Part shown: in pieces, positions 16,591 to 19,255 of the stretch
How the letters are laid out: each line of letters starts with the position of its first letter
How positions within the stretch are numbered: position 1 is the first letter of the stretch
NCBI RefSeq assembly: GCF_020386975.1
Contig: NZ_JABFNK010000005.1
Location: 1 to 64,000, forward strand
DNA: 64,000 nucleotides
DNA from: Thermococcus bergensis
GTDB lineage: Archaea; Methanobacteriota_B; Thermococci; Thermococcales; Thermococcaceae
Direction of reading: 5' to 3'
Made by a program: the position numbers and the translations under genes
Notes under the pieces: generated by a model
Database searches by the model: none
The model's input: the letters and a program-made list of their open reading frames with translations, nothing else
Told to the model about the DNA's origin: nothing

Positions 16591-17976
16591 ATGAATCTGG
16601 ACTTCTTGTTCTATCCGAAAAGCGTTGCTGTTATTGGGGCATCAAACAAAGAGGGAAAAATTGGAAACGCTATAATGAAAAATCTCATAAACTTTGGTTT
16701 TAAGGGCAAGGTTTATCCGGTAAATGCTAGGGAAACCGAAGTCATGGGGCTTAAAGCGTATAAAAGCGTTTTAGAGATACCGGAAGAAGTTGATGTTGCA
16801 GTTATAGCGATTCCCGGGAAGTTTGTCCCTCAGGTGCTTGAGGAATGTGGTCAGAAAGGAGTAAAGGGGGCTGTTGTAATCTCTGCAGGCTTTAAAGAGG
16901 CTGGAAACGTAGAGCTTGAGGAGAAGCTCGTTGAAGTTGCGAGAAAATGGAACATAAGAGTCGTGGGACCCAACTGTTTGGGCATCACAAATATTGAAAA
17001 CGGCTTCGACTGCACATTCAATCCACCGGAAAGGCAAGCAAGACCAGGATTTGGTGGAATAGCCTTTATGAGCCAGAGTGGTGCCTTTGGGGCTGCTATT
17101 CTCGACTGGGCTGCGAGGCATGAAGTCGGTATGAGCAAATTCATAAGCCTCGGAAACATGGCAGACCTTGATGAGAGCGACTTCATGGAGTATTTGAAGG
17201 ACGATGAGGCCACTAAGGTTATCACGGCATACCTTGAGGGAGTTAAAGATGGACGGAAGTTCTTTAGAGTTGCTAAAGAGACTACCAAAAAGAAGCCCGT
17301 AGTAATTCTTAAGAGCGGAAGGACTGAAGCTGGGGCTAAAGCTGCCGCCTCCCATACCGGCAGCTTGGCGGGCAGCTATGCCATTTATAAAGCCGCTTTT
17401 GAGCAGACAGGGGTTTTAGAAGCGAGAAGCATGAGACAGCTCTTTAACTATGCTAAGGTGCTGGCAATGCAGAAGCCAGCAGAAGGAGACAGGGTGGCAA
17501 TAGTTACCAACGGTGGCGGAGCTGGAGTAATGATGAGCGATGGAATTCTTGAGGTAGGATTAAAAATGGCCGAGCTCAGTGAGGAGACCAAAGAGAAATT
17601 CGCCAGGGCGATAGAAGAAGGAAAGCTCCCGTACCACATGAGTTACAGGAATCCCATCGACATAATTGGAGACGCTCCCTCTAGCAGATATGAGATTGCT
17701 ATGCGCTATGCTTTAGAGGATGAGAACGTTGATGTTTTGGTTGTTATAGCTCTCTTCCAGAGCCCGGCTTTAGATGAAGGCATCGTGGAAAAAGTGGGCG
17801 AAATGCAGAAGTACGGAAAGCCAATAGTTTTCATAGCTCCCGGTGGTGAATTCCCGGAGAGGATGGCGAGAAGAATAGAAAAGACAGGAGTACCGGTTTT
17901 TGAAACAGTCGAGGATGGGGTTGATGCGGTTTACGCTTTGGTCAAGTACGGGCGGTATCTTAGAGAGACGATTTAG
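16591..17976 (+). CDS. ADP-forming acyl-CoA synthetase, alpha subunit
   Basis: Makes ATP from an acyl-CoA, ADP and phosphate, the main energy-conserving step of peptide and sugar fermentation in Thermococcales. The protein opens with a CoA-binding Rossmann domain (SVAVIGASNKEGKIGNAI). It has two succinyl-CoA-synthetase-like domains with VGPNCLGITN, MSQSGAFGAAILDW, and the phosphohistidine segment ASHTGSLAGSYAIYKAAF. At 461 residues it is a typical free alpha subunit; no beta subunit (ATP-grasp) gene is next to it. The start at 16591 follows GGGGGGAAAGGGC. Several alpha paralogues exist per genome, so the acyl preference (acetyl, aryl, branched) is not assignable. Confidence 0.88.
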   Translation: MNLDFLFYPKSVAVIGASNKEGKIGNAIMKNLINFGFKGKVYPVNARETEVMGLKAYKSVLEIPEEVDVAVIAIPGKFVPQVLEECGQKGVKGAVVISAGFKEAGNVELEEKLVEVARKWNIRVVGPNCLGITNIENGFDCTFNPPERQARPGFGGIAFMSQSGAFGAAILDWAARHEVGMSKFISLGNMADLDESDFMEYLKDDEATKVITAYLEGVKDGRKFFRVAKETTKKKPVVILKSGRTEAGAKAAASHTGSLAGSYAIYKAAFEQTGVLEARSMRQLFNYAKVLAMQKPAEGDRVAIVTNGGGAGVMMSDGILEVGLKMAELSEETKEKFARAIEEGKLPYHMSYRNPIDIIGDAPSSRYEIAMRYALEDENVDVLVVIALFQSPALDEGIVEKVGEMQKYGKPIVFIAPGGEFPERMARRIEKTGVPVFETVEDGVDAVYALVKYGRYLRETI

Positions 17977-17994
17977 GGTTGCCTTGGGGAAAAC

Positions 17995-18000
17995 TTTATA
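17995..18000 (+). promoter_or_regulatory. TATA box of the trpS leader
   Basis: TTTATA in an A/T-rich run. Its centre is about 26 bases before position 18024, so transcription should begin at or very near the first mini-ORF ATG. Confidence 0.5.
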
Positions 18001-18023
18001 TTTTTATTTTCCACTTTTAGACC

Positions 18024-18053
18024 ATGCACGGTGATTGCTTTTGGCTTTGGTGA
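18024..18053 (+). CDS. Leader mini-ORF with two Trp codons upstream of trpS
   Basis: A nine-codon ORF (MHGDCFWLW) in the leader of the tryptophanyl-tRNA synthetase gene. Two of its last three codons are TGG. It begins about where the TATA box predicts transcription to start, so it could be translated leaderless. Its stop TGA shares its A with the ATG of a second mini-ORF. Translation is not proven. Confidence 0.4.
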   Translation: MHGDCFWLW

Positions 18054-18085
18054 TGAAATCTGGATTCCTCTTTTGGTTAGTTTGA
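18053..18085 (+). CDS. Second leader mini-ORF with a Trp codon
   Basis: Ten codons (MKSGFLFWLV) chained to the first mini-ORF by a TGATG overlap, ending 18 bases before the trpS ATG and just before its GGAGGTG site. Ribosomes stalled here would be close to the trpS binding site. Translation is not proven. Confidence 0.35.
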   Translation: MKSGFLFWLV

Positions 18086-18103
18086 TTTCTGGAGGTGTTC
18101 TGG

Positions 18104-19255
18104 ATGGAATTTGAGGTAACTCCATGGGAAGTGAAGGGTGTAGTAGATTACGACAGGCTCATTACGGAGTTTGGAACGACGCCGCTCACCGAAGAGCTGC
18201 TTGAGAAGACCAAAGAGCTTACCAAAAGTGAGCTTCCGATATACTTTAGGAGGAGGTTTTTCTTCTCCCATAGAGACTATGACTTGGTTCTTAAAGACTA
18301 CGAAGAGGGTAGAGGCTTTTTCCTCTACACGGGGAGAGGCCCAAGTGGGCCGATGCACATCGGACACATAATCCCCTTCTTTGCAACAAAATGGCTTCAG
18401 GAGAATTTCGGAGTTAACCTGTACATTCAAATAACAGACGATGAGAAGTTCCTCTTCAAGCCCAATCTAACCTTTGAGGAGACTAAGAAGTGGGCGTATG
18501 AAAACATTCTCGACATCATTGCTGTAGGCTTTGACCCGGACAGAACCTTCATTTTCCAGGACAGCGAGTTTACAAAAATCTACGAGATGGCAATTCCGAT
18601 AGCAAAAAAAGTTACCTACTCAATGGCAAGGGCAGTTTTTGGGTTTAACGACCAGAGCAAAATCGGAATGATATTCTATCCAGCAATTCAAGCTGCGCCT
18701 ACTTTCTTTGAGAAAAGGCGCTCCCTTATTCCGGCAGCCATTGACCAAGACCCATATTGGAGAATACAGAGAGACTTTGCCGAAAGCCTGGGATATTACA
18801 AAGCAGCCGCTCTGCACTCAAAGTTCGTCCCCGGTTTGATGGATTTGGGAGGCAAAATGAGTGCCTCAAAGCCAGAAACTGCCATTTACCTCACAGACGA
18901 CCCGGAGGAAGCAGGGAAGAAAATATGGAAGTATGCCCTAACCGGAGGAAGGGCTACGGCAAAAGAGCAGAGAGAACTTGGAGGAGAGCCAGATAAGTGC
19001 GTTGTGTTCAAATGGCTTGAGATATTCTTTGAGCCCGATGACAAGGCCTTACTTGAGAGGTATCATGCATGCAAGAATGGAGAAGTACTGTGCGGTGAGT
19101 GCAAGAGGTATCTGATAGAGAAGATCCAGAACTTTTTAAGAGAGCACCAGAAGAAGAGGGAAGAAGCCAAAAAGCTTGTTGAGAAGTTTAAGTACACCGG
19201 AGAGCTGGCTAGGGAGCAGTGGGAGAAGGCTATCCCTGAGCCTCTAAGAAAATAG
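18104..19255 (+). CDS. trpS: Tryptophanyl-tRNA synthetase
   Basis: Charges tRNA-Trp, a class I aminoacyl-tRNA synthetase. The HIGH-type motif is PMHIGH at residues 83-88 and the KMSKS-type motif is KMSAS at 251-255. The length of 383 residues fits archaeal/eukaryal TrpRS, which has an N-terminal extension (about residues 1-70). ATG 18104 follows GGAGGTG with 7-base spacing; the GTG three codons earlier lies within that site. The leader carries two Trp-containing mini-ORFs. The cognate tRNA-Trp gene is also in this window at 63.4 kb. Confidence 0.95.
   Translation: MEFEVTPWEVKGVVDYDRLITEFGTTPLTEELLEKTKELTKSELPIYFRRRFFFSHRDYDLVLKDYEEGRGFFLYTGRGPSGPMHIGHIIPFFATKWLQENFGVNLYIQITDDEKFLFKPNLTFEETKKWAYENILDIIAVGFDPDRTFIFQDSEFTKIYEMAIPIAKKVTYSMARAVFGFNDQSKIGMIFYPAIQAAPTFFEKRRSLIPAAIDQDPYWRIQRDFAESLGYYKAAALHSKFVPGLMDLGGKMSASKPETAIYLTDDPEEAGKKIWKYALTGGRATAKEQRELGGEPDKCVVFKWLEIFFEPDDKALLERYHACKNGEVLCGECKRYLIEKIQNFLREHQKKREEAKKLVEKFKYTGELAREQWEKAIPEPLRK

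Follow-up and report, generated by a model that had tools for sequence, protein, structure and literature searches.

The leader of the tryptophanyl-tRNA synthetase gene (trpS) of Thermococcaceae very probably senses charged tRNA-Trp by a programmed +1 frameshift similar to that of prfB, and the leuS and ileS leaders would work in the same way, with CUC and AUC codons; the shift, its yield and its effect on expression are deduced from sequence comparisons. These comparisons directly establish the conservation, the geometry, the openness of the frame, the cognate codon and, at leuS, ileS and two fused trpS loci, the lack of a start codon for entry into the +1 frame. The window (the whole analysed stretch of 64,000 nt) comes from a Thermococcaceae genome of 2.08 Mb, and the features are collected in Table 1.

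Table 1. Positions of the trpS leader elements in the window and of the leuS and ileS leaders of the same genome.
Feature	Position	Strand	Evidence or remark
BRE/TATA box AAAACTTTATATT of the trpS promoter	17990..18002	+	sequence
ORF1, 0-frame mini-ORF MHGDCFWLW, ATG to TGA, predicted leaderless	18024..18053	+	intact in 83/83 Thermococcaceae
Internal Shine-Dalgarno (SD) sequence GGTGAT of ORF1	18030..18035	+	GGTG invariant in 83/83; fits GGDGRD; initiation-like spacing
Putative slip codon TTT (P site)	18039..18041	+	TTT 81, CTT 2 among 83
Putative +1 re-pairing site TTT after the slip	18040-18042		
Putative hungry Trp codon TGG (A site)	18042..18044	+	no variation in 83/83, nor in the 23 fused loci from other archaea
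+1 frame GFGDEIWIPLLVSLISGGVLDGI	18043..18114	+	reaches trpS start in 83/83; 35 expected from shuffles
TGA stop of the +1 frame	18112-18114		overlaps trpS start, within ATGGAATTTGAG
trpS SD sequence GGAGGTG	18091..18097	+	sequence
trpS, tryptophanyl-tRNA synthetase, 383 aa	18104..19255	+	NCBIfam tryptophan--tRNA ligase, 740.8 bits
leuS leader	L233 1306-1475; contig C5 ~377.7-377.9 kb		
ileS leader	L231 ~3580-3440; contig C5 ~1031.9 kb	minus (L231)	

The original prediction described two chained, Trp-containing mini-ORFs in the trpS leader. Both are present in the window: ORF1 (ATG CAC GGT GAT TGC TTT TGG CTT TGG TGA) is joined by TGATG to ORF2 (MKSGFLFWLV, from 18053), and the two contain three TGG codons upstream of the trpS SD sequence and start codon. 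A missing mini-ORF or Trp codon in relatives had been named as the refuting outcome; the relatives were checked for this, and ORF1 was not refuted. The trpS gene was located in 86 of 94 Thermococcaceae genomes and the leader was readable in 83 of them; these genomes share ancestry, so that the leader counts given below are not independent trials. ORF1 was intact in all 83 leaders, in the form M-x-G-[D/G]-x-[F/L]-W-(up to 3 codons)-stop, with one or more variable codons between ATG and Gly. The conserved unit consists of a putatively leaderless ATG, an internal SD sequence GGTGRT, YTT, TGG and a stop codon one to three codons further on. The Trp codon is invariant, Gly is always encoded by GGT, and the codon preceding TGG is TTT in 81 leaders, CTT in two and never TTC. 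A second Trp codon is present in 63 leaders and absent from 20. The motif ATGNNNGGTGNNNNNYTTTGG occurs about once per genome, at trpS, and was matched in 59 of 61 genomes. The conservation of ORF1 is far above chance and supports the proposal that the leader reads charged tRNA-Trp through a translated Trp codon. The same cannot be said of ORF2, which together with ORF1 is found in the window and one close relative; a chained ATG follows ORF1 in 12 of 83 leaders, and two of the 83 have an ORF2 with Trp. The half of the predicted pair that survives is thus ORF1, and reinitiation along two chained Trp mini-ORFs has virtually no chance of being the mechanism. A pyrimidine-rich second stretch, CTCTTYTG...TTAG (18066-18083 in the window), lies between the mini-ORF and the trpS SD sequence and is kept in many trpS leaders.

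Counted from the first T of the TATA box, the distance to the ORF1 ATG is 29–30 nt in all 83 leaders (29 nt in the window), always with C at -1. This fixed spacing, together with the C at -1, supports the predicted start of transcription at or beside the ATG, as originally proposed. An alternative is that the conserved core overlapping the transcription start serves as an operator in the DNA or as an RNA site bound by a protein; in favour of this, several positions (GGT, TTT) are kept more strictly than the codons require. However, insertions between ATG and GGTG come in multiples of three, the +1 frame stays open, and the codon at the hungry position switches with the gene. The stop codon of ORF1 also varies, both in its letters (TGA 73, TAA 7, TAG 3) and, slightly, in its place, which indicates that the existence of a stop is what is kept. 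An operator or protein-binding site is therefore extremely unlikely.

The layout of ORF1 is that of prfB (internal SD, YUU, U, hungry codon), and for this reason the reading frame entered after a +1 slip, modelled as YTT-T-GGN, was followed in each leader. In all 83 Thermococcaceae leaders this frame runs without a stop up to the trpS start. Its stop lies 0 to +26 nt beyond the script-assigned trpS start, and +43 nt in one genome; the script-assigned start is possibly a few codons too far upstream in several genomes, in which case the larger values would shrink. When counted strictly, 73 leaders are open through the trpS start and 10 end with a TGA directly before it. Dinucleotide-preserving shuffles of each leader, which ignore phylogeny, gave an expectation of 35 open +1 frames against the 83 observed, and of 31 open -1 frames against none observed among the 83. 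Third-position bias was not found in the +1 frame of the trpS leaders. The +1 leader peptide thus seems to be without visible selection, and the reading itself, not the peptide, seems to be kept. The constraint on YTT-TGG, combined with a +1 frame that reaches the TrpRS frame or is identical with it, points to +1 frameshifting at the hungry codon. A -1-frame ORF starting with TTG after the internal SD sequence (MALV...) was rejected, as some of the genera do not keep its codons and several genomes have it interrupted; moreover, the 0-frame stop dictates which base follows its fourth codon. Transcriptional slippage was also discarded: the T run is only 3–5 long and was judged too short for this process.

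The trpS element also occurs in Korarchaeia, the class to which L054 belongs, and in some members of the Nitrososphaeria-like class that includes L058, with ATGACAGGTGACCTCCTTTGGCCCTGA, ATGGGTGAATATCTTTGG and ATGGGGGATCGTCTTTGG as examples. There, 23 loci show a fused form, in which the +1 frame after the slip is the stop-free TrpRS frame itself and the 0 frame ends within a few codons. Downstream of the slip, 13 of these 23 loci lack a start codon in the TrpRS frame. In L054 (Methanodesulfokora washburnensis) and L189 the whole stretch from the last in-frame stop to the conserved SPWEV sequence is free of TrpRS-frame start codons, and the 0-frame ATG is preceded by the SD sequence GGTGAT; to make full-length enzyme, these two loci would require a shift or a start of an unknown kind. 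Although metagenome assemblies are the source of many fused loci, the frame relation is repeated from one to the next, which makes assembly error unworkable as an explanation. The leader form was found in six loci outside Thermococcales (L180, L181, L210, L214, L215 and L216), where the +1 frame ends about 8–14 nt past the trpS start; by eye, L212 also fits this form with an altered start codon. In a TrpRS tree of 91 rows the element turns up in several clades that lie apart from one another, and fused and leader forms are mixed among them. The TrpRS of many Korarchaeia (L020-L027, L173-L177) groups with the Thermococcaceae enzyme, to which it is 73–78% identical; the sensor may have been carried along by gene transfer. 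The L054/L178 and L180/L181 enzymes, from the same class, stand apart from these Thermococcaceae-like ones.

The leuS and ileS genes of the same genome, with families confirmed, are preceded by trpS-like leaders that have their own codon in the hungry position. The leuS mini-ORF opens with ATG CTT ATG AGG GGG GAT CGA GTT CTC and that of ileS with ATG CCC ATG AGG GGG GAG GGT TTT ATC. Among 30 leuS and 30 ileS leaders compared within Thermococcaceae, 29 of each contain the complete motif; it is incomplete in L265, which is cut short upstream, and in L292, whose 5' part is different. Mostly 29–32 nt separate the TATA box from the ATG; then come a G-rich internal SD sequence, with 5 nt between GGNG and NUU, and the cognate codon. 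In ileS the slip and hungry codons are TTT-ATC in 29/29, while in leuS they are GTT-CTC (17) or CTT-CTC (12), so that the hungry codon is again cognate in all 29. In ileS the +1 frame stays open as far as the start in 29/29 leaders, where 8.8 are expected, and in leuS in 26/29, where 6.4 are expected; in the other three leuS leaders it stops 2–12 nt short. An invariant TGA within ATGAGG shuts the +1 frame of both genes 15 nt upstream of the slip. Between this TGA and the slip a start codon occurs in only one of the 58 leaders, and an SD-preceded start in the +1 frame downstream of the slip was found in none of the 58. With the frame closed by TGA and start codons nearly absent, the leuS and ileS +1 frame can hardly be entered except by slipping. 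After a +1 slip, the P-site tRNA is predicted to re-pair well in the Trp leaders and at CUU-C, but more weakly and imperfectly at UUU-A of ileS and GUU-C of leuS.

These counts also bear on dual coding, in which the +1 frame would be entered without frameshifting, by ordinary initiation at the GTG inside GGTG. This GTG lies in the +1 frame of every Thermococcal trpS leader, where it could in principle start that frame, and at the same place in 20 of the 23 fused loci. The dual-coding reading nevertheless leaves the conserved ATG and the 0-frame stop unexplained, and it meets L178, which lacks the GTG, L054 and L189, which lack any start codon, and the closed frame of leuS and ileS. On the start-codon counts at leuS, ileS and the fused loci, a GTG start was rejected as a general explanation, and we consider dual coding very unlikely.

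How specific the layout is was addressed by scanning contig C5 (1.247 Mb, 60% of the genome) for a promoter-spaced mini-ORF with GGNG-N5-NTT and a +1 frame ending near an SD-preceded start, irrespective of the codon at the A-site position. This strict scan matched trpS, leuS, ileS and one further locus; three of the four matches are thus synthetase genes with their own codon at a position that the scan ignored. The -1 control of the strict scan gave no match on this contig. The fourth match (C5 954602, minus strand) has GGCG-N5-GTT followed by GGA in a leader of 39 nt before a 150-aa ORF and is probably due to chance; the ORF resembles a universal stress protein. Looser patterns were not discriminating. 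With any SD spacing and any codon, 14 mini-ORFs were found for the +1 frame versus 26 for -1. The TATA-ATG-SD pattern had 55 matches genome-wide versus 82 in the reversed control and was therefore not enriched; trpS, leuS and ileS were among the 55, and the remaining matches did not have the layout. Eight further synthetase-type loci from two Pfam searches had no such leader when inspected by eye.

The following course of events would account for these features. The ribosome would start at the 5'-terminal ATG of the mini-ORF, as the promoter spacing suggests. Once UUU occupies the P site and UGG the A site, the internal SD sequence may hold the ribosome through pairing with 16S rRNA, as it lies at the distance of working initiation SDs: among the window genes SD distances peak at 9–11 nt, and in ORF1 there are 9 nt from the first G of the internal SD to the slip codon. 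When Trp-tRNA is ample, UGG would be decoded and translation would terminate two codons on, 50 nt short of the trpS start. When Trp-tRNA is scarce, the A site would stay empty, the P-site tRNA would slip by one base and the ribosome would enter the +1 frame. In the leader form, such a ribosome would stop overlapping the trpS start, leading to reinitiation or to opening of the start site; termination atop the synthetase start codon should favour reinitiation. In the fused form, present in Korarchaeia and some Nitrososphaeria, the +1 shift would yield TrpRS directly, and it is because of this form that we take the shift to mean more enzyme. In leuS and ileS, CUC and AUC would be the hungry codons of the same device.

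A ribosome waiting at UGG could also act without any shift, by altering RNA folding or trpS transcription in the manner of an attenuator. The translated Trp codon conserved at a fixed place near the 5' end is in keeping with such leader-peptide stalling, as is the ability of the codons before TGG to pair with the trpS SD sequence in one Korarchaeal group. On the other hand, there are usually one or two cognate codons, not a run, and nothing convincing in the way of conserved RNA structure was found by RNAalifold in groups of leaders of equal length or by folding the window leader (z-score 0.41). Removal of the ribosome-covered part of the window leader left SD accessibility unchanged. Stalling does not explain the constraint on YTT, the open +1 frame in three genes and the fused form, and it is an unlikely alternative to the proposed +1 shift. 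The original idea of stalling or reinitiation along chained Trp ORFs thus gives way, with ORF2 unconserved and no conserved fold, to a constraint that rests on YTT-TGG and the open +1 frame. In L020-L023, L026 and L027, CTCCTT or TTCCTT in the mini-ORF can pair with the trpS SD sequence AAGGAGG; an extra stall-dependent control is possible in these loci.

The archaeal leaders share with prfB a short 0-frame ORF, an upstream internal SD-like sequence, a slippery YUU-U and a slow A-site codon that is read by the product of the gene; fused trpS genes resemble prfB also in making their product from the +1 frame. The prfB consensus is AGGGGG, 3 nt, CTTT and a stop codon (PMC12421855). In the archaeal leaders the slow codon is read via the gene's own product (TGG 83/83, ATC 29/29, CTC 29/29), a slippery NUU-N adjoins it in all leaders with the motif (TTT/CTT for Trp, TTT for Ile, GTT/CTT for Leu), and the SD-like sequence stands at a fixed short distance, GGNG-N5-NUU, for each of the three genes. 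In the 23 fused loci the product is encoded by the +1 frame; this is not so as such in Thermococcaceae, including the window, where the product has a gene of its own and the +1 frame ends on its start codon. None of these loci is prfB itself, as the downstream genes are trpS, ileS and leuS and not that for release factor 2. The differences extend to the A site, which holds a stop codon in prfB and a sense codon read by a charged tRNA in the archaeal leaders, to the initiation-like spacer of 5 nt after GGNG, which is shorter in prfB, and to the number of amino acids served, three in the archaeal device.

Other known systems resemble the proposed device in part. The hungry-codon frameshifting studied by Gallant in E. 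coli likewise takes place at an A site left empty for lack of one aminoacyl-tRNA, but it is known as adventitious, whereas the archaeal shift looks selected and stands ahead of the gene for the cognate synthetase. The attenuators of bacteria (trpL, leuL, ilv, his) use a translated leader whose cognate codons read tRNA charging. The archaeal leaders differ in having one or two cognate codons and a reading frame as the output, and terminator/antiterminator hairpins were not seen as conserved structures in the leader alignments. T-box leaders also make synthetase genes responsive to tRNA charging, but there the RNA binds the tRNA, while in the archaeal leaders a translating ribosome would sense it; a search of 17900-18300 gave no T-box or any other Rfam match at E<=1. 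The fucA1 gene of Saccharolobus solfataricus is a recoded cellular archaeal gene too, although its shift is -1, at A-AAA-AAT, and unlinked to tRNA charging; as of 2021 it was the only frameshift reported in Archaea, others being putative (PMC8211752). In T. kodakarensis the SD consensus is GGDGRD, about 14% of mRNAs are leaderless, and attenuators have no direct support (PMC4247193). Our literature search on archaeal leader peptides, frameshifting and synthetases, whose scope excluded most subscription journals and all preprints, did not reveal a report of the element or an experiment on one of these leaders.

If our reading is true, no conserved, programmed +1 frameshift would to our knowledge have been found before in cellular genes of archaea. 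It would also be a case of purposeful hungry-codon frameshifting; a 2016 review by Atkins considered that such frameshifting could serve starvation-specific products and stated that no examples were known (PMC5009743). In fused-type TrpRS genes, the beginning of the coding region will be overlooked or cut short by gene-calling programs. The occurrence of UGG, CUC and AUC on one scaffold allows a direct test of empty-A-site slipping in the genetically tractable Thermococcus kodakarensis. Archaea probably have a general class of frameshift sensors, in which one leaderless mini-ORF with a swappable Trp, Leu or Ile codon would respond to scarcity of the charged tRNA by a +1 shift and turn on the synthetase concerned, either through fusion or through coupled reinitiation. 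Such leaders would add a charged-tRNA sensor for archaeal synthetase genes to the leader-peptide attenuators and T-boxes.
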